DNA of 64,000 bases from Salinibacterium sp. NG253 (GTDB taxonomy: Bacteria > Actinomycetota > Actinomycetes > Actinomycetales > Microbacteriaceae): assembly GCF_015864945.1 (NCBI RefSeq), contig NZ_JADYWF010000001.1, forward strand, positions 1,922,378 to 1,986,377, in the 5' to 3' direction. Below, in pieces: positions 1 through 50,404 of this stretch. Made by a program: the position numbers and the translations under genes. A model generated the notes under the pieces. It was not told the DNA's origin. It was given only the letters and a program-made list of their open reading frames with translations, and did no database searches. The number at the start of each line of letters is the position of its first letter. The stretch's first letter is position 1.

Positions 1-633
1 CTCATTGGCGGCAGTGTTTTCGAACACTCTGAAGAGAACCCGATGCTCGGCTTCCGGGGAGCGTCGCGCTATTACAGCCCGCGCTATCGCGAAGGCTTCG
101 ACCTTGAATGTCGCGCGCTCAAGCGCGTGCGCGAGCAGATCGGATTCGCCAACATCATCATCATGGTGCCGTTCTGTCGCACTGTGGCCGAGGCCGATCG
201 TGTTCTGGACGTGATGGCAGAGAACGGCTTGGTGCGAGGCGAAAATGGGCTTCAGATTTACATGATGTGCGAGATTCCCGCCAACGTGATTTTGGCTGAA
301 AAGTTCGCCACCCGGTTCGATGGTTTCTCGATCGGTTCCAACGACTTGACGCAATTAGTGCTTGGTGTTGATCGAGACTCAGAGGAGTTGGCAGCGCTTT
401 TTGACGAGCGGGATGACGCGGTCACGTCCATGATCAGCCAAGCCATCCAGAAAGCGCACGCCGCCGGAATCAAAATCGGAATTTGCGGGCAGGGCCCCAG
501 CAATTACCCCGACTTTGCGGCGTTCCTCGTCAACGAGGGAATCGACTCCATTTCGCTCAACCCCGACAGCTTCATGAAGACGGTTCCCCATATTGCTGAC
601 GCTGAGGCTGCCGTCGAGGCGCGCGACCGCTAA
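1..633 (+). CDS. ppsA: Phosphoenolpyruvate synthase, C-terminal part
   Basis: The open frame enters from the left edge, so only about the last 210 residues are present. PEP synthase converts pyruvate, ATP and water to PEP, AMP and phosphate in the cytosol, the entry step of gluconeogenesis. The visible part matches the PEP-binding TIM-barrel domain: ENPMLGFRGASRYYSP near the left edge, GSNDLTQLVLGVDRDS in the middle, then the cysteine region GICGQGPSNYPDF and the family ending GIDSISLNPDS. The TAA stop at 631-633 overlaps the TAG stop of the convergent aldolase gene. The neighbouring aldolase and phosphofructokinase-like genes suggest a central carbon cluster. Identification is firm; the start lies outside the window. 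Confidence 0.95.
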   Translation, partial: LIGGSVFEHSEENPMLGFRGASRYYSPRYREGFDLECRALKRVREQIGFANIIIMVPFCRTVAEADRVLDVMAENGLVRGENGLQIYMMCEIPANVILAEKFATRFDGFSIGSNDLTQLVLGVDRDSEELAALFDERDDAVTSMISQAIQKAHAAGIKIGICGQGPSNYPDFAAFLVNEGIDSISLNPDSFMKTVPHIADAEAAVEARDR

Positions 634-1525
634 GTTGTGGACGCTCGAAAAATGCTGCTGATCGATTCTTCGAGCGTTGCGGTGAACTCGTCGTCGCTCT
701 GCTGAATGGTGAGCCCCTCCGTGAGCGCACGCGAAAAGCTCGCGACTACGCCGTGCTGACGGGATAGTCGAGCGTTGGCTTCTGCACGGCTGTAGCCGCC
801 TGAGAGCGCGAGCACTCGCAGCACATTCGGGTGGGCCACGAGGTCTGCGTAAAAGTCATCGACTTCGGGAAGCGTCAGCTTGAGCATGACGTACTGGTCT
901 GCGCCGAGGGAGTCGAGCTGTTCGAGAATCGCGGCCTTGAGCATCCGCTCGGCTTCATGCTTGCTTGGCGAATGGATGTCGATCTCAGGCTCAATGATGG
1001 GCACAAGACCGGCCGCCAGAATCTGACGGCTGATCTCGAATTGTTGGTCAACGATTGCCTGCACGCCTGCCGCGTTACCAAGCAGGATCAGTGATCGCAT
1101 TTTGGTGCCGAAGATGCCGTTATCGAGAGCGCGGGCCAGCACCGCGTCGAGTCCGGGCAGCGGGTTCATCAACTGGGCTCCGTCGACCTCGCGCTGGAGG
1201 CCTTTGTCTACCTTGAGAAAGGGAACGATGTTCTTGACGTCCCACAGGTAGTCGGCGCTCGGGCGACCCTCGATCTGGCGGTCCATCGTCTGCTCGAAGA
1301 GGATGGCACCCAGGATGCGGTCACCGCTGAAGCTGGCGTTGGTGACGATACGTGTGCGCATCGCATGGACGAGATCGAACATCTCCTCGTCGTCAGAGTA
1401 GGAGTCATCCTGAATGCCATAGAGCTTTAGAGCTTTAGAGCTTTGGGTGTGCTGCCACCGCTCTGGTCGAGCGCCGCAATGAAGCCGTCAGCGTCCTTGA
1501 TCTTGGTGAACTGCAATTCATTCAT
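630..1525 (-). pseudogene. fba: Class I fructose-bisphosphate aldolase, frameshifted at an 8-bp repeat
   Basis: The protein family cleaves fructose 1,6-bisphosphate to two triose phosphates. A start codon at 1525, with AGAGGAG upstream, opens [15 protein letters not shown] and [15 protein letters not shown], then hits TAA. After 8 extra bases the expected sequence resumes (YGIQDDSYSDDEEMFDL) and runs to the stop at 630. The extra bases are one copy of a unit present three times (1421-1444). With two copies the gene would encode 295 residues, the usual length of this bacterial class I family. Downstream motifs are intact: GDRILGAILFEQTMDR, FLKVDKGL, LALSGGYSRAEAN. A restart at ATG 1382 would give 250 residues lacking the N-terminal barrel strand and its conserved Asp. 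It may be a dead gene, a reversible off state or a sequencing error. Confidence 0.88.
1421..1444. repeat. Three exact tandem copies of AGAGCTTT inside the aldolase gene
   Basis: Three contiguous 8-bp units (AAAGCTCT on the coding strand) lie about 80 bases into the aldolase reading frame. Two copies keep the frame; three shift it and create an in-frame TAA. Tandem units of this size can gain or lose copies by slipped-strand mispairing. Confidence 0.95.
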
Positions 1526-1548
1526 GGTTATGCTCCTCTTCGTTTCGC

Positions 1549-2523
1549 CTAGTAGCGTGTGGCCTCCGGAAGCACTAGTTCGAGAGCTTCTACTTCCTTA
1601 AGGGCACACATCTCGGTCGCCGGCGTCGCTGCCGTTGCGCTGCCCGCAGCGACAGCAGAACGGAATGCACGTTCAGGATCTTGCCCCTGTGACAGTCGCC
1701 ACACAAACGCTCCCAGAAATGCATCACCAGCACCGACAGCACTCTGCACCCGCACCGTGGGCACTGGCAGCCGGATGACGCCGGAGGCGGAGGCGAGCAC
1801 GGCGCCGGCCTCGCCAAGAGTCAAAGCAACGAGTTGGGCGGAGCCGCGAGCGACAAGCTCGGCGGCGGCATCCACTTGACTCTGTTCGGTGGTGAGCTCT
1901 CGGCCCACGAGTTCACTCAGTTCGCGGAGGCTCGGTTTCACAAGGTAGACACCTTCGGCGAGGGCATCGGTGAGCGCTTCGCCAGACGTGTCGATGATCG
2001 AGCGTGCACCCTTCTGGTGCGCCAATCGTGCCACTTGAGCGTAGAAATCTGTCGGCACTCCGGGCGGCAGACTGCCGCTGGCCACAACATAGCCACCGGG
2101 AATGATCGCTGCTTCTAGCGTTGCAAGGCAGCGTTGCCACTCGGCTTCGCGAAACTCTGGGCCCTGCAGCACGAACCGAAACTGTTGGCCCGAATCGTTT
2201 TCGTCAACGGTGAAGCTCTCCCGAGTCGTGCCAGCGATGGGCACCGCGAGGCTGGGAACGCCTTCTGTCTCGAGCAACTGTTGATAGGTGGCTCCCGTGA
2301 GGCCACCAGCCGCGTAGATGGCAAGGGCGTCCCCGCCGAGTTTGTGGATGGTGCGCGCCACATTCACGCCGCCTCCGCCAGGGTCGATGCGGCTGGGGCC
2401 ACAGCGCATCTTGTGATCCTTAATCACCCGTGGAGTCGACGTGCTGATGTCGAGCGCGGGGTTGACCGTCAGGGTCACGATGGGCCGCCCTGTCGTGGAC
2501 AGCGGGGGAGTAACGGATGCCAT
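1549..2523 (-). CDS. pfkB: PfkB-family sugar kinase, probable 6-phosphofructokinase II type
   Basis: Predicted cytosolic kinase of 324 residues that phosphorylates a sugar phosphate with ATP, most likely fructose 6-phosphate (or fructose 1-phosphate, as in FruK relatives). The PfkB/ribokinase fold is shown by [11 protein letters not shown] at the N-terminus, the substrate motif [11 protein letters not shown], the central [10 protein letters not shown] and the C-terminal anion-hole/catalytic motif [11 protein letters not shown] containing the catalytic Asp. An in-frame GTG at 2532 exists, but the ATG at 2523 has GTGGGG just upstream and is preferred. It lies 23 bases upstream of the aldolase gene on the same strand, so the two are probably co-transcribed. 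1-phosphofructokinase cannot be excluded. Confidence 0.88.
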
Positions 2524-2564
2524 AATCCCCACTTTATGGCGTTGTTACCGCCCCATCGAACGGT

Positions 2565-22288: not shown

Positions 22289-23950
22289 TTATGGTTGGGC
22301 GGGCGCGCGGTACACGCGCTCGCCTTCGACGAACGTCTGCTCGGTGCGGGTGCGGCCGATGTCGGCGGCTGCTTCCGCGAAGGGGTCGCGATCGAGAACG
22401 ACCAGATCGGCGAGCTTGCCGACCTCAATCGTTCCCGTCTCATCCAAGTGATTAGTGAACGCGCTGCCTGCGGTATACGCGGTCATGGCGGTCAGCAGGT
22501 CAATGCTTTGCTCGGGCAAGAAGGCGTCATACTCGCCCTCTTCGTGGCCGGGAGCCGCCTTGCGGTTGACGGCAACGTGGATGGCCGCCATGGGGTCGGG
22601 GCTCGATACTGACCAGTCGCTGCCGGACGCCAAGTGCGTTCCGGCGCGGTGCAGGTCGGCCCACGGGTATTGCCACGAGCTGCGCGGGTTGCCTAAGAAT
22701 GGCAGCGTCAGGTCGACCATCTGAGGCTCGAGCGCGGCCCAGTACGACTGCAGGTTGGCGGTCACGCCGAGTTCAGCGAAGCGGTGCACGTCATCCGGAT
22801 GCACCACCTGCAGGTGCGCGATGTGGTGACGGTTGTCGTTGGGGCCGTTGATCGCTCGCGCAGCCTCAACTGCGTCGAGGCACTCGCGAACGGCGCGGTC
22901 ACCGATGGCGTGGAAGTGCACTTGGAAGCCAAGAGCGTCGAGTTCAGTAACGTTCGAGATCAGCTGCGCGGCATCCACGAAGGAAATGCCGGAGTTGTCG
23001 GTGTGGTGGCCACAGCCGTCGAGGTAGGGCTCAAGCATGGCGGCGGTGAAGTTCTCGGCAACGCCGTCTTGCATGATCTTCACACTCGTGGCGGCGAAGC
23101 GCCCAGTGGCGTTCTTCTCCCGGCGCATCACGAGCTCGGGAATCTGTTCGGGGCCACGCGTGCGATCCCACCAGAGGGCCCCGACTACGCGAGCGGTGAG
23201 GTCTCCCGACTCGGCCGCAGCCATGTAGGCGGGAGTGGCATCGCCGGCATCCCCGTAGCCGCCCAAGATGGCATCTTGCCACGCGGTCACCCCGAGCGAG
23301 TGCAAATATTCTTGCCCGATCAGCAGCGCGCGAGCGTAATCTTCGGGCGACGTTTCGGGCAGCAGCGCGTTCACGAGCGACATTGCGCCCTCGTGCAGCG
23401 TGCCCGTGGGGTGGCCGTCGGCGTCGCGCTCGATGCGGCCATCGGCAGGGTCGGGTGTCTCGGCGGTGATGCCGGCAAGCTCCAGCGCGCGCGAGTTCAC
23501 CCAGGCACCGTGGCCGTCGCGGTTCGGAATGAACGCGGGCCGGTCAGCAACAGCGAGATCGAGATCGGATGCCGTTGGCGTGCCCCCGGGGAAGGCCGAC
23601 ATGTTCCAGCCACCGCCCAGAATCCACTCGAGCTCAGGGTTCGCCGCTGCATAGTTCTTCAGCCGCGCTACATACTCATCGCGCGTCGAGTCCCCGGAGA
23701 GATCACAGCGGATGAGGTCGAGCCCGCCCCACACGGCGTGCACGTGAGCATCCTGAAATCCGGGGATCAGCAGTTTGCCGTCAAGGTCAACAACCTCGGT
23801 AGCGGGACCGATAAACGGCTGGATGTCGGCGTCGACGCTGCTGACAGCGATGATGCGGCCGTCGCGCACGGCCACGCTTCCGCGGCAGGGCTCATCGCCG
23901 GTCGCCGTGAAGACGGGGCCACCGGTGAAAACGAGGTCAGCAAACGTCAT
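22289..23950 (-). CDS. Amidohydrolase of the YtcJ type
   Basis: A 553-residue metal-dependent hydrolase of the amidohydrolase superfamily, YtcJ group. The first metal motif is LLIPGFQDAHVHAVWGGLDL (HxH), the central insert is YtcJ-like (LEWILGGGWNMSAFPGG, NRDGHGAWVNSRAL), the further ligand histidines lie in QVHFHAIGDRAVRE and HHIAHLQVVHPDD, and the last Asp is in LASGSDWSVSSPDPM. The C-terminal beta strand region LADLVVLDRDPF is standard. Its position in the polyamine operon suggests it cleaves an amide or guanidine-type bond of the imported compound or its oxidised product. Exact substrate unknown. Confidence 0.85.
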   Translation of the reverse strand: MTFADLVFTGGPVFTATGDEPCRGSVAVRDGRIIAVSSVDADIQPFIGPATEVVDLDGKLLIPGFQDAHVHAVWGGLDLIRCDLSGDSTRDEYVARLKNYAAANPELEWILGGGWNMSAFPGGTPTASDLDLAVADRPAFIPNRDGHGAWVNSRALELAGITAETPDPADGRIERDADGHPTGTLHEGAMSLVNALLPETSPEDYARALLIGQEYLHSLGVTAWQDAILGGYGDAGDATPAYMAAAESGDLTARVVGALWWDRTRGPEQIPELVMRREKNATGRFAATSVKIMQDGVAENFTAAMLEPYLDGCGHHTDNSGISFVDAAQLISNVTELDALGFQVHFHAIGDRAVRECLDAVEAARAINGPNDNRHHIAHLQVVHPDDVHRFAELGVTANLQSYWAALEPQMVDLTLPFLGNPRSSWQYPWADLHRAGTHLASGSDWSVSSPDPMAAIHVAVNRKAAPGHEEGEYDAFLPEQSIDLLTAMTAYTAGSAFTNHLDETGTIEVGKLADLVVLDRDPFAEAAADIGRTRTEQTFVEGERVYRAPAQP

Positions 23951-24005
23951 GGTCGTGCACCTTCTGGTTCGTTCGAACTGCTGCGGTCAGGAGCGGGGGA
24001 GCGAC

Positions 24006-24848
24006 CTAGCCGCCACCAACGGTCTTTGCGATATCAGTGGCAGAATCGCCAGCGCGACGCAAGACGTAGGCCACGAGGCCGAGGGCCAGAAGCGTCAGCA
24101 GCAGCATGATCGTTGAGACGGCGGCAATTTCAGGCCGCAATCCGGTGCGCACGGCACTCAACACGTAGACAGGCCACGGAGTGGAACCCGAGACCTGAAC
24201 GAAAGCCGAAACGATCGTGTTGTCGAGGCTGAGGGTGAACGAGAGAAGGCCACCAGCGAGAACGGCGGGCATCACCAGCGGGAGAGTGATCTGCGTGAAG
24301 CGCTTGAACGGGGGAGCGTAAAGGTCGGCAGCGGCCTCCTCCAAGCTCTCATCGATACCAACCAGGCGCGAGCGCACAATGTACGCCACGACGGCGGTCG
24401 CGAACAGAGAATGACCAACGACGAGGCGCACGATTCCGTTGTCGAACATGCTGAGGCCGACATCCTGACCGAGGAAGACCATCCACGGCAAGAGTGAAAC
24501 GGCATCCACAATTTCGGGGGTGACGGTAACAAGCACGAGCAAGATCAGGAACGCGGGTGCCCACTTGCCGGCCCGGCGAGCGAGTGCCACACCAGCCATG
24601 GTGCCGAGAGCGGTCGCGATGAGTGCCGCAATGAAGCCGGTCTGGATCGACACCAGCACGGCATCCGTGATGGCTGGTTTAGTGACGATGGCGGCGAAGG
24701 AGCCGAAACCGAACTCATCCCACGCCACCAGAAGGCGACCCTCGTTGAACGAGTAGATGATGATGACGGCGATGGGCGCAAAGAGGAAAACGAAAACGAT
24801 CACGGCCCACACCTTGAGCGACACGTCAGTAAGTGTCAGGCGGTTCAT
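24006..24848 (-). CDS. potC: Polyamine-type ABC transporter permease (PotC-like)
   Basis: A 280-residue inner-membrane permease with six predicted helices. The EAA loop that contacts the ATPase reads LEEAAADLYAPPFKRFTQITLP. The N-terminal segment WAVIVFVFLFAPIAVIIIYSFN and the following NEGRLLVAWDEFGF match the second permease of spermidine/putrescine importers. The start ATG at 24848 overlaps the potB stop by four bases; a longer in-frame start is ignored. It works as heterodimer partner of the upstream permease. Polyamine specificity is inferred from the family and the amine-oxidase neighbour. Confidence 0.9.
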   Translation of the reverse strand: MNRLTLTDVSLKVWAVIVFVFLFAPIAVIIIYSFNEGRLLVAWDEFGFGSFAAIVTKPAITDAVLVSIQTGFIAALIATALGTMAGVALARRAGKWAPAFLILLVLVTVTPEIVDAVSLLPWMVFLGQDVGLSMFDNGIVRLVVGHSLFATAVVAYIVRSRLVGIDESLEEAAADLYAPPFKRFTQITLPLVMPAVLAGGLLSFTLSLDNTIVSAFVQVSGSTPWPVYVLSAVRTGLRPEIAAVSTIMLLLTLLALGLVAYVLRRAGDSATDIAKTVGGG

Positions 24849-48659: not shown

Positions 48660-49310
48660 TTAGTTGGAGGTGTCGAGGTGGGTGAGGAGGCGATCGCGCG
48701 CCCCCAGAATGTGGTCGCGGGTGAGGCGCTCCGCTGAGGCGGCATCCCCGGCGGTGATCGCATCGAGGATGCCCTGGTGTTGCTCGGCTACCTCGTGAGC
48801 GGTGATGAGGTGGGCGGATTGAACTTGCCCAATGCACAACTCGACTTCGCCCATGAGCAGTTCGTGCAGGCGAGTGAGGCGCGTGCTGGGCTGACCGGCG
48901 ACGAGCGCGCGGTGGAATTGGATGTCGTGGTGCGCGAAATCATCGGTGGCGGTAAGCGCCCGGTGGGCTGCCAGCGCTTCTGCCGGAATCGCGCCGGCTT
49001 CGGCGAGGGCGCCCATCGCGGCAGTTTCCACGATGGAGCGGGTGTCGAAGAGGTCGAGCACGTCGTCGTAGCTGAGCTCGGGCACGCGCGCGGCCCGGTG
49101 GGCTTCGCGACGCAGGATGCCGTCAGCGACCAGACGGTCGATGGCGATGCGTGCGGTGGGGCGGGCCACGCCGAACCGCAGGGCGACGGCCGACTCGGTG
49201 ATGGCCGATCCGGGGGCATCGCGCTGGGCGATGATGTCGGCGCGAAGCTTCTGAGCAACGGTCTCGGGGAGCACTGCGGCGTTTTCAATCAAGGTGCGCT
49301 CCCTCTTCAT
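48660..49310 (-). CDS. GntR-family regulator with an FCD domain (LldR-like)
   Basis: A 216-residue regulator: an N-terminal winged helix (SAITESAVALRFGVARPTARIA, then IDRLVADGILRREA) and a C-terminal FCD ligand domain (SIVETAAMGALAE, FHRALVAGQPS) that binds an organic acid. It lies nine bases upstream of lldD in the same direction, so it most likely senses lactate and controls that operon. ATG start at 49310, followed by a matching operator upstream. Confidence 0.92.
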   Translation of the reverse strand: MKRERTLIENAAVLPETVAQKLRADIIAQRDAPGSAITESAVALRFGVARPTARIAIDRLVADGILRREAHRAARVPELSYDDVLDLFDTRSIVETAAMGALAEAGAIPAEALAAHRALTATDDFAHHDIQFHRALVAGQPSTRLTRLHELLMGEVELCIGQVQSAHLITAHEVAEQHQGILDAITAGDAASAERLTRDHILGARDRLLTHLDTSN

Positions 49311-49317
49311 TGACTCG

Positions 49318-49356
49318 GATTGTCAAACAATCTAACAGAATGTAAGACAAAGTGAA
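49318..49356 (-). promoter_or_regulatory. GntR-type operator over the regulator/lldD promoter
   Basis: GATTGT (49318-49323) and ACAATC (49327-49332) form a perfect dyad with a three-base centre; the core TTGTCAAACAA fits FadR-type sites. On the minus strand TAGATT (49329-49334) could be -10 and TTCACT (49351-49356) -35, 16 bases apart, so the operator covers the -10 box. Confidence 0.7.
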
Positions 49357-49411
49357 ATAGGCCCCTGCTACATTGGCGACGTATGTTTTCGTGCGCAACA
49401 AAGGAGATGGC

Positions 49412-50404
49412 ATGACGAAGCAAGTGGCATGGGGAATCTTGGGCACCGGGTGGATCGCAACGCTGCAAACGAGTGACCTGAACGAGCACGGCCACAAGGT
49501 CGTTGCAGTTGGATCACGCACTCAAGAATCGGCCGACAAGTTCGCTGCCGAGTACGGCATCCCGACCGCTCACGGCAGCTATGAAGACCTCGTTGCCGAC
49601 CCCAACGTTGACGCCATCTACGTCGCTACTCCCCACCCGTTCCACGAAGAGCACGCGCTGCTGGCCCTCAACGCCGGCAAGCATGTGCTTGTCGAGAAGG
49701 CGTTCACGATGAACGCTGCCCAGGCGGAGAACGTCGTCTCCCGGGCATCCGAACTGAACCTTGTCGTGCTCGAAGCCATGTGGACGCGCTACCTGCCGCA
49801 TATGGTGCGCATCCGCCAGCTCATCGCCGAGGGCGCGCTCGGAAAGATCCGCAGTGTGATAGCCGACCACAACCAGAACATCTCAATGGATCCGCTGCAC
49901 CGCCTGAACAACCCGCTCTTGGGCGGTGGAGCGCTGCTCGACCTCGGTATCTACCCCGTGTCATTCACCTACGACATCCTCGGCGCCCCCACGAGCATCG
50001 TGGCCGTCGCCACCAAGACAGTGACGGATGTCGACCGCCAGACCTCGATGATCTTCAGCTACGGCGACGAAGCCCAAGCGGTTATCCAGACCACCCTCGA
50101 TCTGCGAGGCCCCACGCGCGCCGTGATCGTCGGCAGCGAAGGCCGCATCGAAATCGCCGAGACTTGGTACGCGCCCACGACCTACACGCGCTTCGATGGA
50201 AAGGGCAACGTTGTCGAAGAATTCGATGGCACCGTCACCGGTCGCGGCATGCAATTTCAGGCCGCAGAACTTGAACGGCTCGTCACCGCAGGCGAGATCG
50301 CCAACGATATTCTGTCGCCGAGCGAGACCATCGAGATCATGCACACGCTCGACGAGATCCGCCGCCAGATCGGGCTTACCTACCCGATGCTCGACGAAAG
50401 CTAG
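49412..50404 (+). CDS. Gfo/Idh/MocA-family oxidoreductase
   Basis: A 330-residue NAD(P)-dependent sugar or inositol dehydrogenase-like enzyme. The Rossmann start is QVAWGILGTGWIATLQTSDL; the active-site motif is VLVEKAFTMNAAQAE (EKP-like, here EKA), followed by the second conserved block RLNNPLLGGGALLDLGIYPV with the catalytic Asp/His region. AAAGGAG before ATG 49412 supports the start. It is divergent from the GntR-lldD operon and may share that promoter region. Substrate unknown. Confidence 0.9.
   Translation: MTKQVAWGILGTGWIATLQTSDLNEHGHKVVAVGSRTQESADKFAAEYGIPTAHGSYEDLVADPNVDAIYVATPHPFHEEHALLALNAGKHVLVEKAFTMNAAQAENVVSRASELNLVVLEAMWTRYLPHMVRIRQLIAEGALGKIRSVIADHNQNISMDPLHRLNNPLLGGGALLDLGIYPVSFTYDILGAPTSIVAVATKTVTDVDRQTSMIFSYGDEAQAVIQTTLDLRGPTRAVIVGSEGRIEIAETWYAPTTYTRFDGKGNVVEEFDGTVTGRGMQFQAAELERLVTAGEIANDILSPSETIEIMHTLDEIRRQIGLTYPMLDES

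Follow-up and report, generated by a model that had tools for sequence, protein, structure and literature searches.

A three-copy 8-bp repeat closes the frame of an accessory class I aldolase gene in Salinibacterium sp. NG253: a probable slippage pseudogene

Introduction

Frameshift pseudogenes can arise by slippage at short direct repeats, and replication slippage typically yields the gain of exactly one unit. Tandem repeats can also underlie contingency loci, in which the open state usually returns at every third unit; three copies are few for a hypermutable tract. The locus described below resembles slippage-made frameshift pseudogenes in having one extra exact unit, a gene that is otherwise open, and a related function elsewhere in the genome. 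No difference from such pseudogenes was seen.

Simple-sequence-repeat phase variation is the other described system to which the locus can be compared. According to a phase-variation review, switching must run in both directions and be detectable without selection (PMC11868660), and a G-tract switch has been described in Bifidobacterium breve (PMC9187656). As in such systems, the reading frame is set here by a tandem repeat within the gene's 5' portion; unlike them, the present locus has just three copies, would carry a stop in all larger arrays tested, and has no counterpart with a tandem pair among 94 other loci (best 80 of 411 stretches included).

The window, a 64-kb stretch of DNA analysed as a whole, belongs to a genus of the Microbacteriaceae. 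A sequence-only reading of it had proposed that an extra 8-bp unit switches off an aldolase gene, and that changes in copy number could toggle the enzyme. Here we compare the locus with its relatives and weigh the explanations of its present state.

Loci and comparisons

The repeat site was examined in 95 loci: the strain's own, two of the genus, 80 from genome contigs and 12 of the family. The genome-contig scan supplied the best 80 of 411 stretches encoding a relative (among these 80, L005 repeats L003), and in the family 17 of 299 genomes gave a match, of which two weak ones, L097 and L098, were left out. The nearest named locus among the best 80 of 411 is that of Salinibacterium sp. SWN167 (L005), with 96% protein identity across the part of the gene that remains open. 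For the comparison of reading frames, 66 mechanically defined sister open reading frames (ORFs) were used, 43 with a window homologue and 23 without.

The interrupted class I aldolase gene

The features of the locus, in window coordinates, are as follows.

1-633, plus strand: 3' part of a phosphoenolpyruvate (PEP) synthase gene, convergent with the aldolase gene
630-1382, minus strand: rest of the class I aldolase gene, open over 250 codons and closed by a stop, encoding a protein 96% identical to the sister's
1421-1444, minus strand (AGAGCTTT on the plus strand): three exact copies of an 8-bp unit, where the sister gene has 16 bases
1427-1525, minus strand: truncated 5' part of the class I aldolase gene, with ATG at 1525, 32 residues, and TAA at 1429-1427
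1549-2532, minus strand: open gene for a pfkB-type hexose kinase, separated by 23 bp from the aldolase gene that lies downstream

The sister aldolase ORF encodes 295 residues and identifies the family: its protein scores above the cut-off of the NF003784 model (466.7 against 392 bits, residues 1-294) and can be aligned with structure 2iqt over residues 1-293. In profile searches, the window remainder, which begins in the aldolase frame with an internal ATG at 1382, covers positions 47-295 of the 297 in NF003784 with a score just below the same cut-off (388.8 against 392) and passes PF00274 (33.4 against 22.2). Both the sister protein and the remainder thus align with the class I fructose-bisphosphate aldolases of the NF003784 type (PRK05377 type; structure 2iqt); unlike these, the window gene closes its frame after 32 residues, and it is best called a broken member of the family. 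The TAA stop and the intact state of the rest of the gene, both claimed from the sequence alone, were found as described, the 250 downstream codons staying open. A scan for promoters and terminators found nothing.

Five presumed active-site segments, VMLKLT among them, are all present in the DNA. No single reading frame holds all of them, as the first lies before the TAA and the other four after it. With the frame closed after residue 32, the segment that presumably bears the Schiff-base lysine does not stand in one chain with the start. Of the 95 loci (best 80 of 411 included), 93 encode the peptide ALDQSGGS(S/T)P in the same frame as the rest of the protein. The exceptions are the window's own locus and L036, where Ns marking an assembly gap lie just downstream and the usual N-terminal peptide falls in another frame. 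The frame that is broken here is therefore kept in 93 of the 94 other loci (best 80 of 411 included), the remaining one being the locus with Ns.

The repeat array and its counterpart in relatives

The three exact copies reported earlier are present, head-to-tail, with AAAGCTCT as the unit on the coding (minus) strand. They had been placed within the first 100 bases of the gene; they do lie inside its 5' part, but occupy nucleotides 82-105 and so extend beyond that limit. The window contains no other perfect period-8 array of at least three copies. None was found in 74.9 kb of the sister genome or in any of 20 dinucleotide shuffles of the window, and the array's 16-mer has two overlapping matches in the 2.97-Mb genome, both at 1421-1444. 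Taken together, these searches indicate that the array is hardly a chance pattern.

At the corresponding site, where the sister encodes KALKL, its codons contain the 16 bases AAAGCCCTGAAGCTCT. These differ from two units at two positions, both synonymous, and form an imperfect repeat over conserved residues; since they sit in these conserved codons, the repeat looks like a by-product of codon choice. A single AAAGCTCT is held by 3 of the 94 other loci and a tandem pair by none (best 80 of 411 included in both counts). One slippage event on a two-copy repeat would suffice to create the three-copy array.

The proposal that the gene is off through an extra repeat unit gains support from this comparison, with 16 bases at the site in the sister and the frame kept elsewhere. 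On the sequence of one assembly of one strain, we consider it likely that the gene carries a recent slippage loss-of-function mutation and that it was dispensable. Synonymous changes would have made two perfect 8-bp copies out of the imperfect 16-bp repeat of the KALKL codons, and replication slippage would then have added one unit, so that the frame now closes after residue 32 of the class I aldolase; a class II enzyme would make the loss tolerable. A complex mutation around the array, in the form of a substitution cluster, was also considered and dropped, because the differences from the sister include denser clusters elsewhere in the gene when judged by eye.

Copy number and the reading frame

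A slippage-driven aldolase switch, that is, a contingency locus, is suggested by a perfect tandem array within the 5' portion of a gene that is otherwise open and by a unit length that is no multiple of three. The earlier proposal included an open state at five copies. However, when arrays of 3 to 9 copies are read in the entry frame, each gives KALKL followed by the same in-frame TAA; added copies never reopen the gene, so the five-copy open state does not exist, and expansion leaves the gene off. The relatives do not keep the repeat either, as two perfect copies are absent from all of them (0/94, best 80 of 411 included). The array is short for a hypermutable tract, and the target is a central-metabolism enzyme, encoded here by an accessory gene in a genome with a class II aldolase. 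The on/off switch was rejected on the stop in all arrays of 3 to 9 copies and on the missing tandem pair, and we regard copy-number toggling of this gene as very unlikely.

It is similarly very improbable that the three-copy allele represents one state of a live polymorphism, with cells with and without the extra unit coexisting and being favoured in turn. If this were true, an aldolase that travels with PEP synthase would be turned off by the gain of one unit and on by its loss.

Constraint on the gene

Over the 250-codon remainder, 38 synonymous and 13 nonsynonymous changes separate the window from the sister, giving a dN/dS of 0.094; this value leaves the frameshift undated, and so low a ratio would equally fit a gene that remains in use or an error in the assembly. 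The corresponding values are 0.088 for pfkB and 0.038 for the end of the PEP synthase gene. Beside these values, that of the remainder bears no sign of long decay, and the gene appears to have been constrained during most of its divergence from the sister, which makes the frameshift look recent. Both neighbours, PEP synthase and pfkB, have open genes; the surroundings are thus still maintained, a point that counts against a loss of function.

Assembly error and residual expression

The sequence-only reading had held a fixed mutation and an assembly error to be equally possible. A mutation, possibly fixed, is the best reading of the locus, and an assembly error appears less likely. Under an assembly or consensus error, the living strain would be intact and the third copy would come from sequencing or assembly; one 8-bp indel within a short repeat, a 9-contig assembly, and a gene otherwise under constraint are all compatible with this. 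Against it, the gain of one unit is what replication slippage typically produces, the 24-bp array is shorter than common sequencing reads, and the assembly is scored 99.9% complete. In addition, only 2 of the 43 sister ORFs with a window homologue are split between frames, namely the aldolase and one with a doubtful 5' end. In the opposite direction, 38 of 55 window ORFs have a sister homologue and 17 have none; the one split among the 38 falls within the first 19 residues of its ORF. With so few splits, frame errors are uncommon in the part compared, and we consider an assembly error an unlikely source of the third copy.

In-frame stops were flagged in 5 of 36 window ORFs and 6 of 38 sister ORFs. 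In the window, the homologues of three sister ORFs have such stops: at residue 421 of 426 in the first, at residues 26 and 34 of 285 in the second, and at residues 106 and 134 of 604 in the third, which is opposed by a 553-residue ORF on the other strand. Of the other flagged ORFs, one is a partial match and another is truncated at the window's edge. A second frameshift near 49297, in a regulator gene, was considered and set aside, because the sister ORF is split within its first 50 residues, a part judged to be upstream of the true start; the longer start of the sister's regulator ORF is probably not the true one. Upstream of this regulator ORF, at 49290-49450, a 1-bp indel and clustered changes distinguish the window from the sister. 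Elsewhere, at 22289-24109, two long ORFs are opposed, of 553 aa on the minus strand and 441 aa on the plus strand, the sister's plus-strand counterpart having 604 aa.

Working or partly working aldolase might still be made if ribosomes shifted frame or restarted at the ATG at 1382, given that the 250-codon remainder is open and begins with that codon. A restart product would, however, be without the 45 residues that precede the equivalent Met of the sister. The missing part includes ALDQSGGS, which is in frame in 93 of the 94 other loci (best 80 of 411 included) and aligned in 2iqt. Another ATG lies closer to the stop, but the 70 residues that follow from it are in a different frame, and no classical slippery heptamer was seen when the sequence was read by eye. 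Residual expression of this kind is extremely improbable, and the slippage mutation is retained as the most likely explanation of the locus.

Genomic neighbourhood and the class II aldolase

The class I aldolase gene occurs in 3 of 27 genus genomes, the strain's own included, and the same three carry PEP synthase at a minimum identity of 90%; two further genus genomes have PEP synthase relatives at 59 and 62%, and the rest have weaker matches. The entire PEP synthase gene is open over 806 codons in L114 (3591-6011). The pfkB gene, at 83% identity or more, is found in 9 of the 27 genomes, six of which have no class I gene. In five of these six, the left flank, which ends in a two-component sensor and regulator, lies no more than about 90 bp from the end of pfkB, and the PEP synthase-aldolase pair is absent; in two of the five, one base separates flank and gene. 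The sixth genome, G013, has about 1.1 kb between the left flank and pfkB, with a 288-residue ORF that matched no Pfam family. In G023 the pair is present and pfkB is not adjacent.

The PEP synthase-aldolase pair appears to behave as an accessory two-gene cassette. Window positions 1-1548, viewed with L114 (3511-6926) and with L106, L107, L108, L109, L110 and L111, display the convergent pair as present or absent as a unit downstream of pfkB. Genes may have been gained repeatedly at this place, since G013 has a different ORF there and five other genomes have almost nothing. Separately, the PEP synthase match in G023 (C1, 131202-131771) is listed with one in-frame TAA. From its pairing with PEP synthase, the class I aldolase would seem to have a gluconeogenic role. 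A bacterium with one glycolytic and one gluconeogenic aldolase, both of class II, has been described (PMC8119897).

The class II aldolase family (PF01116) is matched in all 27 genus genomes. The strain's own copy, encoded by an open gene, passes the NF006628 model for class II fructose-bisphosphate aldolase (459.6 against 297 bits); about 280 bp away is a glpX fructose-bisphosphatase gene. A PfkA-type kinase is also present in the genome. Given the class II enzyme, the strain should be able to tolerate losing the class I gene.

Conclusions

The finding matters little beyond annotation, where the gene is to be marked as frameshifted. It offers a tidy example of how codon choice, in the conserved segment of an accessory gene, can create a repeat prone to slippage, and the search for in-frame stops in larger arrays provides a cheap general test for proposed repeat switches. 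A metabolic model of the strain should rest on the class II aldolase.
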